Shown: one piece after another, positions 2-10,006 of the stretch
How the letters are laid out: the number at the start of each line of letters is the position of its first letter
Numbering within the stretch: the stretch's first letter is position 1
Assembly (NCBI GenBank): GCA_027063755.1
Contig: JAMORD010000066.1
Coordinates: forward strand, 1 to 10,006
From: a bacterium
GTDB taxonomy: Bacteria > Coprothermobacterota > Coprothermobacteria > Coprothermobacterales > JAADFF01
Direction of reading: 5' to 3'
Length of the DNA: 10,006 nt
The notes under the pieces: generated by a model
What the model saw: only the letters and a program-made list of their open reading frames with translations
What the model was told of the DNA's origin: nothing
Databases searched by the model: none
Translations under genes and position numbers: made by a program

Positions 2-2548
2 GGCCATGAAACAGAGGTAGCAGATCTTGGTGAGTATCTTGATGATATGGGATTACTTGGCAAGGAGGCCTTAAGAGATATAGATGTTGTCAGAAATGTT
101 ATCCAAAGCTGGGATAGACAAGAAATAGACAGATTGGCACGCAAGATGTGGCAATCTGATATAGCCAGTAAAGCGGATATTGCCGATACCCTTGTATGGC
201 TTTACTCCTTTATAGATGAGAAGAAGGCCGATTTCTATAGAAAGCTGTCGCTTTTATTACGACGCAACCGTTCGGAACATCAGGTAGCCCTGGCAAGGGG
301 CATGGAGGTTATAAAGACAAGTGAACTGTCTACCGAGAATGTTCTTGACATGGAGATTATTAAACTATCCAATACGGCCGATTACTATCCCCGTGAGGTA
401 AGAGAAAAATTTAGAGTTTACAGAATAAGAAAGCCATTTACCGCATTTCACACATATATGTGGAGTGTAAGAAACCTTAAACCTATTGCTCATATACCCG
501 CTGTGGCCTATGGTATGCTTCAAAATGAAAAATTGTCCCATAGGAGGTTGTATCTTGTTACGGTAATTCTGAAGAGTAAATATCTTCATACCAGTAAACA
601 TGAAATAGGTGAAAAGATACTTCTTCGCTTGAGAAATGAAATATTGGATATGTTACCCCATATTGAATATGCCCAGAAAGACATTGTTCTTCATGCAGGT
701 ATTTCTGCCGGCACAAGTTTTACTGAAAAGTATCCTGATGCCTCTGTTGCAATTATGCGAGACATGATATATAAGGCAAAGGAATGGAATATGCCATCTC
801 TTGAGGCTTCCGCTCTTAACAACATGGCTACCGCTATAATGCGAATGGATGTATCACAGGCTATGATTAGAGGACTTTACGAAGACGCTATGATGGTTAT
901 GCTTTCCAGTGGTGGCGGTAGTATGCTCTTACCTATTATCCTCAATAACTATACTATCCATATGATAGGTGGGAGAAAATACGATGTCGTGCAGTGGCTT
1001 AACCATATCACGGCAACTCTGTTTCCTCTTAGGAAGTTTTTCTCGGAGGTATTGGAGATATTTCTTCATCTTGTTCGTGGTTATGATGTTAGAGATGAAC
1101 TCATGCGACTAATAGAGGATTTACAGAATACATCTATTAACAATAAAAGGCGTTTTACCGAATTTCTGTTTTATCAGATGACATATGTTACGCGCAATAA
1201 AGATGTTATTAAAATACTTGCAGACTACGTGAAAAAAGGACCTATAGTATTGCTCTATAAGGCTATGACTGGTGAAGAGATAACGGAAAATGATCTATCT
1301 CGTGTTAGTGAGATTTTTGCCTATAGATTGATGTTTGAAAAATATGCTTATAGTGGGGACTATGATAATGCCATACTATATGGAGAAAAATTGGCGTCTG
1401 CTCATCTTAGATACGGCAACATGCTATTTCATGGCACGGTGAAAGAATGGTTAGGAGATATTTATCTTAGGACGGGAGATTATAATAAAGCCTCTTTGAG
1501 TTTTGCCCGTGCTGTTTACATATACGAGATGTTGGGTTATTCTGCCAAGACGCAAAAAGTGCTTGATAAGATGAAAATTCATCATAGAAAATGGGATAGT
1601 CCTATAAAGTGGGCTATATTTGGAGTATTAGAAGAATCTCTTCGTAAAGATATCAATCTTGATCTTATAACTTCGTTGTCCAGTGAAGTGGATATTGAGA
1701 GTTTGTTTAGAAGTGCTTTATGGCATATGGCTAATTTCTTGCCATTTTGGCAGGCATTTGTTGTTTTGTATACCGATGGAAAAGAAGAGTATGTGTATAG
1801 CATGGATATTAGTGGGAAAAGAGATATACCTTTGAATGAATTTCAGTATTGCAAGGCTTCGCTTGGTAAGGTTATAGTGCAAGGTGATTGTATGGAAAGC
1901 ATATTCCCTGTCTCCTACAATCGTACACTTAAAGTTCATATAGAGAGGGCATTTGGAGGAAAGAAATTTACATCAATGCAAAGATTATTGTTTGAAGAGT
2001 TTGTCTCATCGCTTGCCAGTGTTACAGCCAGCGTTCTTGTTAAGGAAAGGGGTATTGTAGATAGCTTGACAGGTGTGTATACAAGGTGGTATATACTGAG
2101 ACGACTTGATGAGCTTCTGAAGGCCCGCTCTCGCACGGGAGAGCATGTGTCTGTGCTTTTTATAGATGTTGATAATTTTAAGATGATCAATGATATATAT
2201 GGACATCGTATCGGAGATATGGTTTTGCGTCAGATAGCTACAGCTATTAAGGATAGTGTGAGAACTACTGATATTGTAGGTAGATATGGTGGCGATGAGT
2301 TTATTGTTGTAATGCCATCTACAGATATGCAAAGTGCCATGGTTGTAGCCCAGCGTATAATTGATACAGTAACCCGATATCTTGGTAATATCAATGAAGC
2401 CACAGGTATCTCTGTTTCTATTGGTATATCGGGCACGGAGCTGCATGGGGAGGTGCCACCACAAGTGCTTGTGGAATTTGCAGATAAAGCCATGTATGCA
2501 TCCAAAATGGCAGGTAAGGGTAGGGCTACAATGTATAATGGGAGATAG
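2..2548 (+). CDS. TPR / GAF-like / GGDEF diguanylate cyclase, 5'-truncated by the window edge
   Basis: Predicted soluble diguanylate cyclase, making c-di-GMP from two GTP. The frame is open from base 2 through the first ATG at 47, and those 15 upstream codons align with the downstream paralogue (its residues from about 255), so the gene very likely starts outside the window and lacks about 255 N-terminal residues. Numbered from the Met at 47: a long helical body with TPR-like repeats, the clearest at about 468-500 (WLGDIYLRTGDYNKAS); a GAF-like alpha/beta region at about 545-660, assigned by pattern only; and a GGDEF domain from about 668 to the end at 833. The domain has DSLTG at 672, the metal/GTP-site Asp707 in FIDVDNFK, YGH, GGDEF at 748-752 and the inhibitory-site RTTD at 739-742, five residues before GGDEF. 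The spacing from Asp707 to GGDEF matches active cyclases such as PleD. No membrane segment or signal peptide is visible. The TPR and GAF-like parts probably sense a partner or ligand, which is unknown. The stop codon abuts the next gene, so the two are probably co-transcribed. Confidence 0.88.
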   Translation, partial: GHETEVADLGEYLDDMGLLGKEALRDIDVVRNVIQSWDRQEIDRLARKMWQSDIASKADIADTLVWLYSFIDEKKADFYRKLSLLLRRNRSEHQVALARGMEVIKTSELSTENVLDMEIIKLSNTADYYPREVREKFRVYRIRKPFTAFHTYMWSVRNLKPIAHIPAVAYGMLQNEKLSHRRLYLVTVILKSKYLHTSKHEIGEKILLRLRNEILDMLPHIEYAQKDIVLHAGISAGTSFTEKYPDASVAIMRDMIYKAKEWNMPSLEASALNNMATAIMRMDVSQAMIRGLYEDAMMVMLSSGGGSMLLPIILNNYTIHMIGGRKYDVVQWLNHITATLFPLRKFFSEVLEIFLHLVRGYDVRDELMRLIEDLQNTSINNKRRFTEFLFYQMTYVTRNKDVIKILADYVKKGPIVLLYKAMTGEEITENDLSRVSEIFAYRLMFEKYAYSGDYDNAILYGEKLASAHLRYGNMLFHGTVKEWLGDIYLRTGDYNKASLSFARAVYIYEMLGYSAKTQKVLDKMKIHHRKWDSPIKWAIFGVLEESLRKDINLDLITSLSSEVDIESLFRSALWHMANFLPFWQAFVVLYTDGKEEYVYSMDISGKRDIPLNEFQYCKASLGKVIVQGDCMESIFPVSYNRTLKVHIERAFGGKKFTSMQRLLFEEFVSSLASVTASVLVKERGIVDSLTGVYTRWYILRRLDELLKARSRTGEHVSVLFIDVDNFKMINDIYGHRIGDMVLRQIATAIKDSVRTTDIVGRYGGDEFIVVMPSTDMQSAMVVAQRIIDTVTRYLGNINEATGISVSIGISGTELHGEVPPQVLVEFADKAMYASKMAGKGRATMYNGR
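2540..2544 (+). promoter_or_regulatory. Ribosome binding site GGGAG that decides the start of the second GGDEF gene
   Basis: GGGAG lies inside the last codons of the upstream gene. It is 3 bases from a GTG at 2548, which overlaps the upstream stop as TAGTG, and 9 bases from an ATG at 2554 in the same frame. The longer spacing is within the usual range, which favours ATG 2554. The GTG start remains possible through stop/start coupling. Confidence 0.5.
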
Positions 2549-2553
2549 TGAAG

Positions 2554-5500
2554 ATGGAACTGAAGAAACTTATATTCAAGCTAAAGCACCCCAATCCTGG
2601 TATAAATATCTATGAGGTCATAATGCCTGATATTCATACAGATTATCTTGTATCATTGTTGAAATTACCCTCTGATACCCCTGTTATCAACCTATCTAAA
2701 TTTAGTGGCAATATAGAAAGGCGTCTGACAACGACACTGCTTTCTCTTGTGTCAGATGATGTGATATCACGCACAGAAAACATGTTTTTTGGCACAATGA
2801 AATATGTACTGGGAAGCATGGCTCCAGATGACACGCGGGTACCTACAGATACTGATTATAAATTTCCCATTCCACCATTTGCAGCATCGGTTATCATGAC
2901 ACTGTTTCAGCAAGATGAGAGTTATCCTCAAAATGTTATTATTAGGGTGCCCCATACCGACCTTGCACTGTCTGTGTATAGGATACTCATTAATATGATA
3001 GACTACTACGGAAGTAATCTTAAACCTCTTAATCTTATACTGGTCTTTGACGAAAAAAATTACATGCTTCCTGGAGATCCACTTTATGTTCTTGATGTTT
3101 CCACTATGAAGTTTTTGAGATATGCCCCACTAAATATGTATAGGATATCGGAGGGAAAACCTTTGCTTGGATATATATATGCCAAAGCAAGAAAATATCC
3201 TGAAGATATGAATAGATTAAACACACCAGACTTTTATCTACTGCTTCTTATGTCTGTGATGTTTGACAAGGAAATGTTTCATGAGATGCTTGAAATTGTA
3301 TCTGACAATGAAGATATAAACGAACTTAATGAGCTGGCCCAGTTTTTCGGTATCTTAGATGAATATGGGCACAGTCTTAGTTATACATTTACCTCACGAA
3401 TGCTTGAGAGTATGCCTGAGGATACCTTAGATAAATTTATGAAGTATGCAAGGAGACTATATGACGAGATACCAGAAGAAAAGAAAGGGCAACTGCTTGA
3501 TGCCATAGGAAATGCCCTGTTTTTTATAGGGGACAAACGGTATCTTGTATATAGAATACTTGCCATGAGGAAGTATAAGCAAGTTGGTGAGTATACGCTT
3601 GCTATACACAGGGGAATATTGCTTCTTGTGTCAAGTAAGCGGAAATATAAGCGGATAATGGTTGAACTGGAAAGGCTCGCCAATATGCAAAGATATGTGC
3701 CGCCAGAGTTTGAGACAAGAGAGAATAAAGTGTTTTCTGTGGGTAGTCCTATACATATGCTTCATTCTGTGTGGATTAAGAATGCCTATTTTGAAGAGAA
3801 AGATATTATTACCACTGGTTTCCGTTCGCGGTGGCGTGATGTGCTCTTGCATATGCCTAAAACACGGGCTATTTATGTACTTGCACTGCTGCTGGCAACT
3901 GATGTCTTTACCGGTAGTGTAGAAGAAGAAACTGTTGATATTGCCCGAACACTTGAAAAATTTTTGTTGGAGATAGATTCTATGCCATATATTGCACGAG
4001 ATCTTGTCGTGTATGGTTATCTTGTTCTTGCTCTATACTATGAGTCGGAAAACTTTAGGGAAAAGTCTATGGCCACATATCAAAAACTCATATCTATTGC
4101 CTCGGATAAGGCCGTTCATGTTGTTGAGGGTATAGCCTATAACAATATGGGTGTACTTTTAGGAACGGAGGACTTGCCACTTCGCTCATATGAGCGTTTT
4201 TATAGGCTGGGTATTACAGCCATTATCAAAGCAGGTGGTGCATCTGGACTGATGTCAATAGCTATGCTTAATTATCTTAGTATTGTCAATGCATATGAGG
4301 CAAAGTCTATTGTAGATAACCTGTTTGACAGTTTTAGGTATTTCATATACCCTAAGACAATAGAACGGAATCGTAATAACTACTATGTGCTCAAGGCAAA
4401 TTATCTCGTTAAGCATGGTTACATAGAAGAGGCTATCCAGATAGAGAGAAAACATATTAGAGGAAAAGTGCTTTCTGAAAACATACTAAACAGCTATGCC
4501 AATCTTCTACTTGACCTTGCCTATAAAACAGAGGACCTTTCCTATCTTGATCATATACCTGAAGCATATAAGCTCCACGAAAAAGATTGGCGTGACAATA
4601 GATTTGTATTTATGGCCGTCCGTGCCATGCGTGGAGAAGATGATTTTCTAACAATGCTTGATCAGGAAACAGATTTTGATGACATACAGGTTGCCGTGTT
4701 GAAGAAGATATATTACAAGGCAACAGAACAGTATCCTCTTATGCTTGCGGAGCAAAAGAAACTTATTACTTACAGTGTACAGGTAGGAGACACACTTTCT
4801 GTTGCCGAAGAGGAGATGGAAATGGGACTTGTTCATCTAAAAATGAAAGATGATAGGGCCGCTTATGAGCATCTAAGAAGAGCTTTAGAGATATACAAAA
4901 ACATTGGTAGCCAGAAAATGGTAAATATTGTTCAAGATGCCATCTCGCAGGTAGGAGTAGTGAATACGAGATCGTTTATATTTGATGCCATGGTAATGGA
5001 GATGTTTGTCTATAACATAGTGAAGATAGCCACACTCACAGCTCCCGATAGATTGTTATCTGATATATTAGATATGCTTATCTCGCTGACACCGGCATAT
5101 CAAGGTATTGTGGGTATATACAAAGAAGGGCAGTGGCAGGAGTATGCCGCCCGGGATATTACCGGAAATATAGATATTAGACCTGATATCTTTCATATCA
5201 ACTGGGATATTGTGCCGGAACATGCTTATATATCTAAAGACCATAGTAGCATTACGGTTATTAGCGACTTTAAAGATAAAAAGATTGTTGTTCACTTGGA
5301 AGACCCTATGTATAGCGGTGAGTTTGAAGAGAAAGACAAAGTTATTGTGGAACATATTGTCGCCTTGATGCCCTCGTTAATAGAGGATATGGAACTCAAG
5401 CGCAGAAGCTTGTTTGATAGTTTGACGGGGCTATATGCCCGTTGGTATCTCATGCGTAGGCTTGAGGACATTATTTCCGAAGCCAGTCGCGATGAGGATA

Positions 5501-5898
5501 ATGTGTCTATTCTCTTTATAGATGTAGACAACTTCAAAAAGATCAACGATACTTATGGCCATGATATGGGAGATGTCATATTGAAGGAAATAGCCACGCG
5601 TATAAAAGAGGCTGTGAGAACTACAGATATTGTGGGTAGATATGGTGGAGATGAGATTGTTGTTGTCATGAGGCATGCGGGAACTGACGAAGCTGTTAAA
5701 GTTAGTGAGCGCATTAGAAGAGAAATTATGGGTATAAGGAAGAAATATCCAGAGGCCTCTAAAGTATCCCTGTCTATAGGTATTGCCTCATCTGAGATAT
5801 TTGGTTATGACCATGAAAAGTTGTTAAAGGCTGCCGATCAAGCTATGTACAAGGCGAAGTCACTTGGTAAAAATCGTATTTATATAGCCCATTACTGA
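2554..5898 (+). CDS. Large TPR / GAF-like / GGDEF-family protein (GGDEI variant), paralogue of the preceding gene
   Basis: Probable diguanylate cyclase of 1114 residues from ATG 2554 (1116 from GTG 2548). Residues 1 to about 250 form a mixed alpha/beta region I do not recognise. It contains a Walker-B-like LILVFDE (Asp166, Glu167) but no P-loop. Next comes a helical body with TPR-like repeats near 520-553 (AYNNMGVLLG) and 751-786, then a GAF-like region at about 832-948, and a GGDEF domain from about 951 to the end. That domain has DSLTG at 955, Asp990 in FIDVDNFK, YGH, RTTD at 1022-1025 (intact I-site) and GGDEI at 1031-1035. The GTP- and metal-binding residues are therefore present and only the motif's last residue differs (Phe to Ile), so activity is likely but unproven. 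From residue about 253 onward it aligns along its length with the preceding gene, so the pair arose by tandem duplication. No membrane segments are visible. It is probably in one operon with the upstream gene. Its 3' end overlaps the convergent CLC gene by 7 bases. Confidence 0.9.
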   Translation: MELKKLIFKLKHPNPGINIYEVIMPDIHTDYLVSLLKLPSDTPVINLSKFSGNIERRLTTTLLSLVSDDVISRTENMFFGTMKYVLGSMAPDDTRVPTDTDYKFPIPPFAASVIMTLFQQDESYPQNVIIRVPHTDLALSVYRILINMIDYYGSNLKPLNLILVFDEKNYMLPGDPLYVLDVSTMKFLRYAPLNMYRISEGKPLLGYIYAKARKYPEDMNRLNTPDFYLLLLMSVMFDKEMFHEMLEIVSDNEDINELNELAQFFGILDEYGHSLSYTFTSRMLESMPEDTLDKFMKYARRLYDEIPEEKKGQLLDAIGNALFFIGDKRYLVYRILAMRKYKQVGEYTLAIHRGILLLVSSKRKYKRIMVELERLANMQRYVPPEFETRENKVFSVGSPIHMLHSVWIKNAYFEEKDIITTGFRSRWRDVLLHMPKTRAIYVLALLLATDVFTGSVEEETVDIARTLEKFLLEIDSMPYIARDLVVYGYLVLALYYESENFREKSMATYQKLISIASDKAVHVVEGIAYNNMGVLLGTEDLPLRSYERFYRLGITAIIKAGGASGLMSIAMLNYLSIVNAYEAKSIVDNLFDSFRYFIYPKTIERNRNNYYVLKANYLVKHGYIEEAIQIERKHIRGKVLSENILNSYANLLLDLAYKTEDLSYLDHIPEAYKLHEKDWRDNRFVFMAVRAMRGEDDFLTMLDQETDFDDIQVAVLKKIYYKATEQYPLMLAEQKKLITYSVQVGDTLSVAEEEMEMGLVHLKMKDDRAAYEHLRRALEIYKNIGSQKMVNIVQDAISQVGVVNTRSFIFDAMVMEMFVYNIVKIATLTAPDRLLSDILDMLISLTPAYQGIVGIYKEGQWQEYAARDITGNIDIRPDIFHINWDIVPEHAYISKDHSSITVISDFKDKKIVVHLEDPMYSGEFEEKDKVIVEHIVALMPSLIEDMELKRRSLFDSLTGLYARWYLMRRLEDIISEASRDEDNVSILFIDVDNFKKINDTYGHDMGDVILKEIATRIKEAVRTTDIVGRYGGDEIVVVMRHAGTDEAVKVSERIRREIMGIRKKYPEASKVSLSIGIASSEIFGYDHEKLLKAADQAMYKAKSLGKNRIYIAHY

Positions 5899-7220
5899 TC
5901 CTTATTTTCCTCCTCTTCCATAATATGTCTTGCCGTATTGATACGATAGACATCTTTAGTTACTTTAACAATCTGAGATGGGTATATGCTTCGTGGTCCG
6001 ACAATCTCAAATGCAATAAACACAGCCATAGCTGCTGGCAGAATCATATTGGCACCGAACAGTTCGCTAACCATAACCATTGTTGCCAGTGGTGCGTTGG
6101 CTGCCGCTCCCGCCACAGCTGCAAATCCCAATGCTGCACCAAATGATACAAATGGTACTCCCAGTAATCTGGCGATGATATTGCCACTTGTGGCTCCAAC
6201 GAAAAATAGAGGAGTCATGAGACCACCGGAACCACCTACCGATAATGTTAAAGATGTTAATACGATTTTTCCCAGTGGATCAATGAGTGGAATGTACTCT
6301 CCATTGAGTGCTGCTGTAATAGTCTCGGTGCCCAGTCCATGCCACCTTTGATGTCCCACAAGAGCTCCCAATAAAGCGATAATGACTCCACCTACAAATG
6401 CTTTGATATATGGAGAGACATGCCATCGGGCAAGTGTTTCTTCTGTGAAATCTTTGAAGTCTATGAATAACCTCGCCAATATCCCAAAAGTGATGCCTCC
6501 TACGACAACAAGAAGTATAACCTTAGGACCCATTGGGGGAACATTGATATGGGGAAAGTGGATATAAGTAAGATTGTAAAGATGCTTGGCTACATATAGT
6601 GCACTATATCCTGATATGAGGCTGGGATATAGCATGTTGTATGGGAAATAGTTCATATACACAACTTCAAGTGCAAACAGTCCTCCGGCTACCGGAGTGC
6701 CAAATACCGTGGCAAATGCCCCGCTGATACCTAACATGATAAACCATTTGTTGTCTTCTGAGGGCATTTTAATACCTATAGATTTTAGAAGGGACCTGGT
6801 TAAATTACCTAGCAAAGCAGAAAGAGAGGCACCAATATATCCGGCAGGACCAGCTTTTCCTGCAGAACCGCCAAATCCTATCGTGAGAACTGTAGTGATA
6901 AAAATAATGATAAATCCTATGTGATTGATTGTTGCATTTCTCTTGTGTATGAGCTTTATCACCTGTTCTATACTGGCACCACGGGCTGAAGGGAAGAACT
7001 TTCTTGAGAGAAAAAGAGATAGTGTTAGTGCAAATGGCAGTAGTGCGAGTCTTTCAGGTTTGCCAGACATGGCATCTATTGTTTTATATAAAGTGAGCAA
7101 AAAACCACCTACAACTACTCCTGTGATTACACCTACAACAACACCGGCCACTGTCCATTTAATTAGCCAGTCAAATAAATATTTCAGTTGGTGGGTGTAT
7201 ATCTTTGCTCTTTTTATCAT
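5892..7220 (-). CDS. CLC-family chloride channel/transporter lacking both coupling glutamates
   Basis: Integral membrane protein of 442 residues, close to the bacterial CLC size, without CBS domains and with a short acidic tail (EEEENKDQ). Family marks in order: ARGASIEQ at 79-86, the degenerate counterpart of the GSGIP chloride-binding loop; GGSAGKAGP at 117-125, the counterpart of G(K/R)EGP; VAGGLFALEVV at 177-187; GGLMTP at 332-337, the counterpart of GIFAP; and SIYPSQI at 411-417, where Tyr413 matches the chloride-coordinating Tyr445 of E. coli ClcA. The external gating glutamate (ClcA Glu148) is Ala123, codon at 6852-6854. The internal proton glutamate (ClcA Glu203) is Val186, the residue usual in CLC channels. 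From established CLC work this predicts uncoupled, passive anion conduction. The start ATG overlaps the glgA stop (ATGA) with almost no Shine-Dalgarno of its own, so translation probably depends on glgA. An in-frame TAG lies just upstream, which supports this start. Membership in the CLC family is secure; channel behaviour and ion selectivity are inferred. Confidence 0.92.
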   Translation of the reverse strand: MIKRAKIYTHQLKYLFDWLIKWTVAGVVVGVITGVVVGGFLLTLYKTIDAMSGKPERLALLPFALTLSLFLSRKFFPSARGASIEQVIKLIHKRNATINHIGFIIIFITTVLTIGFGGSAGKAGPAGYIGASLSALLGNLTRSLLKSIGIKMPSEDNKWFIMLGISGAFATVFGTPVAGGLFALEVVYMNYFPYNMLYPSLISGYSALYVAKHLYNLTYIHFPHINVPPMGPKVILLVVVGGITFGILARLFIDFKDFTEETLARWHVSPYIKAFVGGVIIALLGALVGHQRWHGLGTETITAALNGEYIPLIDPLGKIVLTSLTLSVGGSGGLMTPLFFVGATSGNIIARLLGVPFVSFGAALGFAAVAGAAANAPLATMVMVSELFGANMILPAAMAVFIAFEIVGPRSIYPSQIVKVTKDVYRINTARHIMEEEENKDQ

Positions 7221-8593
7221 CTCATTACATATCTATAAACCTCTAAGTATTTTTCTGCCGAACGGTCCCATGAGAAATCTTGCTCCATAGCCACCTTCAT
7301 ATTATATCCGTAGTTTTCGCTAATAAAGTGCTTGTATGCCCTTAGCATAGCTTTTACCAGCGGTAGTGGGTGTGGTCCCTCAAATAAGAATCCTGTTCCC
7401 TCAGCATTCTCTGTGATGTCTATGATTGAGTCTTGGAGCCCTCCTGTACGGGTGGCTATGGGTAGAGCTCCATATCTCATAGCTATCATAGCGGCAAGAC
7501 CTCCCGGTTCAAATCGTGACGGCATCATGAAGTGTGTTGCAGCTGCGTATATCTGGTGTGCTTTCTTCTCAGAATATTCATTAATAAAGACTACATCACC
7601 GGGAAGGCGTGCTACCGCTTTTCTTACCTCTTTTTCTATATCGTCTTCACCTGTTCCCAGTATAACCACCTGAAAACCCAGCTCTACGGCAATGTCGGCC
7701 GTTTCAAGAAATATGTCAATGCCTTTTTGGTGGGTTAACCTTGAAACAATACCCAGCAGAGGAGCATTCTCCCTATCTGTTAGTCCAAACTCCCGCCTCA
7801 GAGAACGCCTGTTTACGGCCTTACTTTCCAGCGCATCTTCTATGTCGTATGGTGCCCATATATGGGGATCTGTTAAGGGATTCCAATATGTTGTGTCTAT
7901 GCCGTTGAGTATACCGATAAATGTACCCTCTTCATATCTCTTCTTTAAACATTCATGGAGTGGAGCAGCATACTTGGGAGTTGTCAGTTCTTTGGCGTGG
8001 CTGGGTGATACTGTGGTAACAAAGTCGGCAAGCACAATACCACCCTTTAGTATGTTGGCATCGGTACCTATTCTCAGAGCGTTCCATAAATATTCAGGTA
8101 AAAAGAAGATGAGTCTTACGGGACTTGCCTGTCCTTGAAATGCTATGTTGTGTATGGTCAGCACCGTCTTTATGTCTATGTTCATATATTTTAGTGCAAC
8201 GACGGTGAAAGCTGTATGCCAATCGTTCATATGCACAATATCGGCCCCTATATGTTTAGCCAGTGAGGCAACTCCTACACTAAATATTTGAAATAGCTCA
8301 AACTCGTCGGGTTCTTTGTATATCTCGTTTCTATTGGTATATGATGGATGGGCTAAAAAGTGATATGTGACACCGTCTTTGTCTTTCCACATATGAACAA
8401 AATCTCCGACAGATGAGTGCATATCTTCCTTACCATGAATATCTCCTATCTCTACCTTTCTTGTTAGAGGTATAACAACATCTATATCTACCGATAATTT
8501 TTTCAATGCGTAGGGAAGACTTCCCAAAACATCTCCCAAACCACCTACCTTGTAAAATGGAAATGCCTCTGCCCCAGCCATTAGTATTTTCAT
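7217..8593 (-). CDS. glgA: Glycogen synthase, GT5 family
   Basis: Cytoplasmic glucosyltransferase that extends alpha-1,4-glucan chains from a sugar nucleotide, normally ADP-glucose in bacteria. From ATG 8593 it is 458 residues, near the usual bacterial length (E. coli 477). The N-terminal half has MKILMAGAEAFPF and KVGGLGDV, with Lys15 at exactly the E. coli position, then HMNDWHT at 121-127 and TIHN with His148. The C-terminal half has ILNGID, SRLTHQKG with Arg285 and Lys290, PSRFEPGG with catalytic Glu362, RTGGLQD, and the typical ending FSWDRSAEKYLEVY. All main catalytic residues are present. The loop after Glu362 reads PGGLAAM rather than the common PCGLTQL. In-frame starts also exist at GTG 8602 and ATG 8599, but AAGGGTGAT is placed correctly only for 8593 and the family N-terminus begins there. 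It is the first gene of an operon with the CLC gene (ATGA overlap) and is divergent from the FapA-type gene. Donor preference, ADP- or UDP-glucose, cannot be settled by eye. Confidence 0.95.
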   Translation of the reverse strand: MKILMAGAEAFPFYKVGGLGDVLGSLPYALKKLSVDIDVVIPLTRKVEIGDIHGKEDMHSSVGDFVHMWKDKDGVTYHFLAHPSYTNRNEIYKEPDEFELFQIFSVGVASLAKHIGADIVHMNDWHTAFTVVALKYMNIDIKTVLTIHNIAFQGQASPVRLIFFLPEYLWNALRIGTDANILKGGIVLADFVTTVSPSHAKELTTPKYAAPLHECLKKRYEEGTFIGILNGIDTTYWNPLTDPHIWAPYDIEDALESKAVNRRSLRREFGLTDRENAPLLGIVSRLTHQKGIDIFLETADIAVELGFQVVILGTGEDDIEKEVRKAVARLPGDVVFINEYSEKKAHQIYAAATHFMMPSRFEPGGLAAMIAMRYGALPIATRTGGLQDSIIDITENAEGTGFLFEGPHPLPLVKAMLRAYKHFISENYGYNMKVAMEQDFSWDRSAEKYLEVYRYVMR

Positions 8594-8597
8594 AAGC

Positions 8598-8606
8598 ATC
8601 ACCCTT
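8598..8606 (-). promoter_or_regulatory. Ribosome binding site of glgA
   Basis: On the minus strand the sequence AAGGGTGAT resembles the anti-16S stretch AGGAGGTGAT and ends 4 bases before ATG 8593. It overlaps the alternative GTG 8602 and ATG 8599 starts, which argues against both of them. Confidence 0.55.
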
Positions 8607-8715: not shown

Positions 8716-10006
8716 ATGTCTACCCAGCAAGAGGGCAAAGAGGTAACGATAGGTCCTATATCCATAAAAGTGGATACGGAGGGGACCTATCTGAAAATCA
8801 ATCAAACAATTAATGATGCCTTACTAACGGCTATTCTGAAAAAAGAAGGATTACCTACTTTGGAACCTAAGGTTTCTGCAACCCTTCGTAAACATCTTGG
8901 TGAGTGGATAAAAATTACCGATAGGAAACTTCATAGAGATGCGTTTGTTGAGGTAGTGGAAAGCCCCGACATGTTGAAAGCCCGACTTATCTATCATCCA
9001 GCCATAGGAGGGGGAAAGGATCTTACCCCGGAAGAGGTTATGAGTATTCTTATAGAGAGAGAGGGAATAGTTCCAGAATTTATAGATCCTAATGCCGTGA
9101 AAAATGCTATATCAAAGCCCGGCAATGCGGTGGTTGTTGCTGAAGGAATACCACCAAAACCCGGATTAGATGCCAAGATTGTTATTGTGCCAATGCAGAA
9201 AAATGCTTCCGAAGACGATGAGGCAGCTCATAAGAGATTGGATTGGCATGAGGCATCATCTTCGGTTATCACCGTGAAGGCCGGTGAGCCTGTGGTGGAA
9301 AAAGTACCGCCTACGGAGGGAGAGCCAGGAACCGGTGTAAAAGGGGAGGTAATACCACCGACACCTGGTAAGGATATAGATCTGCAAACAGTGCAGGGCA
9401 AGGGACTGGAGCTTGAAGAGAACATAAGGCTTGTGGCTACGCGAACAGGTATTTTGAAACAAGAAGATGGCAGGTTTCATATAGATGAGATATTTGTCGT
9501 TGAAGGAGATCTTGATTTTGAAGTGGGAAATATTAAAGATGTAAAACATATAGAGATTAGAGGAAATGTACTCCCGGGGTTCTATATCAGGGTTGATGGC
9601 ATGGTTATTGTTGGGGGAAGTGTGGAAAATGCCACTATTGAGGCCGGCGATAGTGTTTATGTGAGAGGAATTGTTGTGGGTGATAAGGGGGGCTATATTA
9701 AGGCTGGGGGCTTTGTATATGCAAAGGAGTTTATATCTGCCAATGTTGATGCAGGAGACACTGTATATACAGACAGTGGTTTTAGGCATAGTAATATTGT
9801 AGCCGGTAAGCATATCATTGCTACTAATCCTAAAAGCAGGACATCAGGTGGTTCATTGAAAGCACGGTGTAGTGTGTATCTTGGTATTGTTGGTAATTTA
9901 CATGGAACGAAGACAGAGATAAGGGCTGGTTATGTGGAAGATTTGAAAGAAAGAATCACTACTATAAATGAAGAAATAGAGGCATTAAAGGGAAAGAAAG
10001 AGGGTT
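8716..10006 (+). CDS. FapA/DUF342-family beta-helix protein, 3'-truncated by the window edge
   Basis: The frame is open from ATG 8716 to the window end, giving 430 complete codons with no stop. Residues 1-85 are an unassigned N-terminal stretch. Residues about 86-163 fit the FapA N-terminal domain: MLKARLIYHPAIGGG, then DLTPEEVMSILIEREGI, then VVVAEGIPPKPGLDA. From residue 187 the text is the classic FapA core: VKAGEPVVEKVPPTEGEPG, then GNIKDVKHIEIRGNV near 271, followed by glycine-rich short repeats predicted to form a right-handed beta-helix to about residue 400 (NATIEAGDSVYVRG, GYIKAGGFVYAKEFI, SNIVAGKHIIA, GGSLKA). A coiled coil begins near residue 407 (LKERITTINEEIEALKG), as usual in the family. 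There is no signal peptide or membrane segment, so it is probably cytoplasmic. Proteins of this family are linked to flagellar assembly or cell envelope functions in some bacteria, but no flagellar gene is visible here, so its role is left open. It is divergent from glgA. Confidence 0.92.
   Translation, partial: MSTQQEGKEVTIGPISIKVDTEGTYLKINQTINDALLTAILKKEGLPTLEPKVSATLRKHLGEWIKITDRKLHRDAFVEVVESPDMLKARLIYHPAIGGGKDLTPEEVMSILIEREGIVPEFIDPNAVKNAISKPGNAVVVAEGIPPKPGLDAKIVIVPMQKNASEDDEAAHKRLDWHEASSSVITVKAGEPVVEKVPPTEGEPGTGVKGEVIPPTPGKDIDLQTVQGKGLELEENIRLVATRTGILKQEDGRFHIDEIFVVEGDLDFEVGNIKDVKHIEIRGNVLPGFYIRVDGMVIVGGSVENATIEAGDSVYVRGIVVGDKGGYIKAGGFVYAKEFISANVDAGDTVYTDSGFRHSNIVAGKHIIATNPKSRTSGGSLKARCSVYLGIVGNLHGTKTEIRAGYVEDLKERITTINEEIEALKGKKEG

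Follow-up and report, generated by a model that had tools for sequence, protein, structure and literature searches.

The bacterial CLC gene described here, found in a stretch of DNA of 10,006 nucleotides (hereafter the window), probably encodes a functional anion pathway of the CLC fold, no longer coupled to protons. Ala123 occupies the place of the gating glutamate (Glu_ex, E148 in ClcA) and has been retained under strong selection by another species of the same genus, and therefore chloride probably passes through the protein without proton movement.

The window CLC and its pore

The gene translates without interruption into a 442-residue protein that belongs to the CLC superfamily by its match to Pfam Voltage_CLC (PF00654; 202.8 bits, E 1e-59, against a curated cut-off of 24.8). 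This is the only domain in the Pfam scan of the protein, the C-terminal CBS domains being absent. The nearest solved structures by sequence are entries for the CLC-F fluoride antiporter (120 bits), with ClcA-type entries reaching at most 44 bits. An AlphaFold model made from five sequences (pTM 0.73, mean pLDDT 71) has CLC-F as its best PDB match (Z 48.3 over 394 residues, 2.8 Å); other CLCs match it at Z of about 37-40, and all the top fold matches are CLCs. No second CLC was found in the genome, a draft assembly of 251 contigs that is about 88% complete. The features that matter for the argument are given below, where counts refer to 158 CLCs from outside the window genus, a sample biased towards relatives of the query, or to 43 members of the subfamily closest to the window protein.

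7217-8602, minus strand: glgA-type glycogen synthase gene (TIGR02095, above cut-off)
5892-7220, minus strand: clc gene, 442 aa, no CBS domains (Pfam match; CLC fold by model and PDB match)
6963-6986, minus strand: filter loop ARGASIEQ, in which Ser83 replaces a conserved Gly
6975-6977, minus strand: Ala82, at the position of the ClcA filter serine, Ser107
6852-6854, minus strand: Ala123 (GCT), at the gating-glutamate position, in GSAGKAGP
6837-6839, minus strand: Tyr128 (His in the congener), where GxEGPxxQ has its conserved Gln (143 of 158 outside CLCs)
6702-6704, minus strand: Phe173, retained equivalent of Phe_ex (ClcA F190; 154 of 158 outside CLCs have Phe)
6666-6668, minus strand: Glu185, counterpart of ClcA E202, kept
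6663-6665, minus strand: Val186 (GTT), at the ClcA E203 (Glu_in) position, in FALEVV
6210-6227, minus strand: GGLMTP, counterpart of ClcA GGIFAP
6219-6221, minus strand: Leu334, at the position of the extra glutamate of CLC-F, E318
6006-6008, minus strand: Glu405, an acidic residue specific to the genus, eight residues ahead of the inner tyrosine (36 of 43 subfamily members have Leu)
5982-5984, minus strand: Tyr413, counterpart of the inner-gate Tyr445, kept

An insertion of about nine residues separates the Glu_ex helix from the one that follows it in both species of the genus (window 6760-6800, around residues 141-154); the subfamily lacks it. The stop of glgA overlaps the clc start by four bases (ATGA), and the congener keeps both the glgA-clc order and this overlap. 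At its other end clc shares seven bases (window 5892-5898) with the 3' end of a convergent GGDEF gene, and a facing GGDEF gene adjoins the matching clc end on another contig of the congener. Positions 2-2548 and 2548-5898 encode adjacent long proteins with a one-base overlap, each with a C-terminal GGDEF domain (motifs GGDEF and GGDEI), and both have counterparts in the congener. Beyond glgA, and divergent from it, lies a gene for a FapA-type beta-solenoid protein (8716-10005), where the congener has two tandem FapA-like genes beside glgA (locus L025, 1144-4352).

Outside the genus the closest relatives form a CBS-free bacterial subfamily with a GHGTEK filter loop (for example L032, L058 and L029), mostly at 34-38% identity, with 35-38% over nearly the full length for members such as these. 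Its members share with the window protein the Val at Glu_in, the GG[I/V]xTP motif and the inner tyrosine, but have Glu at Glu_ex, in GKEGP, and His in the filter loop, where the window protein has Ala at both places (GKAGP and GASIEQ). In a tree from which the trait column was left out, the two fall in one clade of 52 rows, with CLC-F inside it (99% SH-aLRT, from a quick search). The branching order of the window genus is unsure because of its long branch, at 1.5 changes per column. On its sequence, the window protein is a divergent sister lineage of the GHGTEK-type subfamily, not a standard member of it.

Which of the substitutions, then, are unusual? The first-pass annotation of this DNA had placed Ala123 and Val186 exactly, as translation confirms, and ARGASIEQ, GGLMTP and Tyr413 are as it described them. 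The weight to be given to each nevertheless differs. Among the outside CLCs the Glu_ex column holds Glu in 155 cases and Val in three, with no Ala, but at the E203 position Val (111), Ile (34) and Leu (6) together account for 151 of the 158 and Glu for only two. Val is found there in all 43 subfamily members and likewise in CLC-F, which is an F-/H+ antiporter, so Val186 is uninformative on coupling, and its earlier interpretation as the mark of a channel has to be given up. The same applies to GGLMTP, which had been taken as a special alteration and follows the subfamily norm GG[I/V]xTP. The third element, an altered filter loop, is borne out: His and the following Gly are each present in 42 of 43 subfamily members, and the change from GHG to GAS is genuinely specific to the genus. 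The pore changes peculiar to the genus are thus Glu to Ala123, His to Ala82, Gly to Ser83 and Gln to Tyr or His128, and in the 17 columns that are at least 95% conserved across these CLCs the window protein departs only at 83 and 123. Whether the changes were unique or shared had been left undecided; the alignment shows that Ala123 and Ala82 are limited to the two species of the genus, with Val186 and the GGLMTP-type motif being subfamily-wide. The proposal of uncoupling through two sites consequently stands for Ala123, fixed in the genus under purifying selection, and falls for Val186.

Proposed transport without the gating glutamate

The proposed mechanism begins with the Glu_ex side chain, which in other CLCs moves in and out of the outer anion sites and is the carrier of the proton. 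With Ala123 in its place the outer gate would be permanently missing, and no carboxylate would be there to shuttle H+. The filter loop is also trimmed, His or Ser giving way to Ala82, with Tyr413, Phe173 and Glu185 retained. Anions, most likely chloride, would then cross passively down their electrochemical gradient, either by slow uniport, with the inner gate as the limiting step, or through a channel of small conductance. Fast channel activity is not indicated, as Leu326 and Leu334 keep bulky, transporter-marking residues at the places of ClcA F348 and I356. The loss of Glu_ex together with the small Ala82, set against these leucines and the retained tyrosine, leads to the prediction that anions move uncoupled from protons and probably slowly, not as through a fast pore. 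The protein may serve the cell as an osmotic or charge shunt, and might be expressed together with glycogen synthase.

Precedents come from CLCs already studied. In ClcA, removal of the Glu_ex carboxylate abolishes H+ transport whilst Cl- movement persists (PMC3519907, which also covers the role of E202), and the E148A mutant, which like the window protein has Ala at Glu_ex, turns over about 974 ions/s (PMC7274781). The equivalent E203A change in AtCLCa gives an uncoupled conductance (PMC8839641), and in ClC-K the natural Val in place of the glutamate gate is alone enough to make the protein inert to H+ (PMC6019066). In all three cases H+ coupling is abolished when the glutamate is absent, as the first-pass annotation stated for Ala in ClcA. 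When Ser107 of ClcA is trimmed, coupling falls and flux increases, with a threefold drop in coupling for S107G, and S107G combined with F348A and E148A increases Cl- throughput about 25-fold over E148A (PMC6019066); Ala82 matches this trimming effect and is counted for uncoupling. ClcA shares with the window protein the CLC fold (Z about 40) and the counterparts of E202 and Tyr445, but the two are only about 20% identical, and E148, Ser107, E203 and F357 of the antiporter are replaced by Ala123, Ala82, Val and Met. Against this, the background subfamily is distant from ClcA, and transport measurements for it were not found, which makes the transfer from ClcA to the window protein an inference.

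Natural loss of the gating glutamate is also seen in kidney ClC-K (Val) and plant CLC-g (Ala). The apple CLC-g has its Ala in the same GKAGP motif (PMC10249150), and plant CLC-g with GKAGP is deemed a channel on sequence and complementation evidence (PMC10249150; PMC8839641). As in these proteins, the glutamate is absent in the window genus from a conserved gene under selection. However, ClC-K and CLC-g belong to eukaryotic lineages with CBS domains, which the window protein lacks, and CLC-g, unlike the window protein, retains the proton glutamate and the filter serine. The likeness is convergent, and would extend only to how the proteins work.

Could the protein still be a proton-coupled antiporter, with Glu_ex replaced in function by Glu405, the His or Tyr at 128 or a chain of bound water? 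Glu405 is one of four acidic residues specific to the genus in the alignment with the subfamily (with Glu56, Asp314 and Asp423), is present in both species and may be a substitute carboxylate. The congener has His at 128, and the proton path is flexible given that coupled CLCs lacking the usual inner glutamate exist (PMC3519907). Yet the two species differ at 128, Tyr against His, so there is no conserved proton carrier at this site, and in the CLCs that have been studied no other residue replaces Glu_ex. Retained coupling is thus unlikely, though it is the best placed of the alternatives to passive chloride transport.

Fixation of Ala123 and the question of substrate

Just one close relative was found, the orthologue of the congener (JAADFF010000029.1, 84% identity), and the scan of the named genome collection likewise returned the congener alone. 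Ala123 is encoded by GCT in the window gene and by GCA in the congener. Between the two genes dN/dS is 0.06 at a dS of 1.85 (Nei-Gojobori, with dS near saturation), similar to the values for the neighbouring glgA (0.047), GGDEF (0.043) and FapA (0.064) genes. Identity between the species is 98% in five pore segments, 101 residues in all, and 80% in the rest of the protein (Fisher p 8e-7). A decaying, non-transporting relic or an assembly error might be suspected from the long branch and the fragmented draft assembly. However, the second assembly has its Ala by a different codon, the frame is intact, selection is strong and the pore is more conserved than the rest, with nearly all of the highly conserved columns unchanged. 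Ala123 is therefore not a sequence error, a pseudogene is rejected, and the relic reading as a whole is improbable.

A functional protein that passes anions passively might have been adapted to an anion other than chloride (nitrate, bicarbonate or an organic one), with the altered GAS loop setting the selectivity. The Ser107 place does set the Cl-/NO3- preference in plant CLCs, where Ser and Pro are the alternatives (PMC10249150), and within the subfamily it is Ala uniquely in the window genus. No neighbouring gene, however, points to another anion, the partner being glgA, and the chance of such a substrate is judged slim, a shade below that of a relic.

The likeness to CLC-F brings fluoride into consideration. 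No solved structure comes closer in sequence or in fold than CLC-F (PDB 6d0j, Enterococcus), which has the same Val at Glu_in and a retained Tyr. It is a 1:1 F-/H+ antiporter with an extra glutamate, E318 (PMC12035849), and it has the Glu_ex residue E118, E318 within GGEVTP and another filter loop, all three of which the window protein lacks; GGEVTP is present in 15 of 15 CLC-F-type rows, where the window protein has Leu334. Fluoride riboswitches are frequent, though not universal, at CLC-F genes, and none was found anywhere in the window at the Rfam gathering score, by the same search that found one at the CLC-F gene L044. Membership of CLC-F is rejected on the absence of E118, E318, the loop and the riboswitch, and export of fluoride is unlikely as the task of the protein given that there is no riboswitch and that the genome has a separate gene for the CrcB fluoride channel. 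A fluoride exporter of the CLC-F kind with a passive route is accordingly the least probable of the readings, and a very remote one.

CLC-F-type genes were also seen on mobile or viral-filed DNA. Of two scans of viral sequences the first gave no match and the second only four CLC-F-like loci, on IMG/VR contigs (L098, L099, L100 and L101) that are filed as viral and may be host DNA. Another lies on a Klebsiella pneumoniae plasmid (L023, NZ_CP032169.1, 2662-4340), directly followed by a DUF190 gene and near Tn3 transposase and recombinase genes.

Recurrent loss of the gating glutamate in bacteria

The fewest changes of Glu_ex state on the CLC tree number three, one to Ala in the window genus and two to Val elsewhere. 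The first Val pair, with motif GNVGP, comes from two species of one genus (L164, G681:C1:939665-940855, and L183, G669:C20:26938-28128). In these proteins Ile also replaces the inner tyrosine (HRSVIPTQ), so that both gates are naturally missing. The second, with motif GFVGP, is a separate lineage on a very long branch (L111, G281:C32:20942-22162, and L115, G144:C1:19609-20823) and has Glu at the filter-serine place (GEG). Both pairs are under purifying selection, with dN/dS of 0.21 and 0.07, respectively. It is tentatively suggested that, through loss of the gating glutamate, CLC anion channels uncoupled from protons may have arisen in bacteria on three or more occasions, with L164 and L183 as a natural version of the engineered, doubly ungated ClcA E148A/Y445A.

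No bacterial CLC naturally without its gating glutamate was found in the open-licence literature, which is weak evidence of absence; such proteins are rare in bacteria and, as far as this literature goes, undescribed there. The transition from CLC antiporter to channel is one of the long-standing questions of the family, for which natural glutamate-less members are known mainly from ClC-K and CLC-g. The small, CBS-free bacterial versions would be convenient for asking whether loss of the gate alone makes a channel, and what further alterations of the pore have to come after it. They prompt one to ask, too, how a passive leak of anions might benefit a bacterium.
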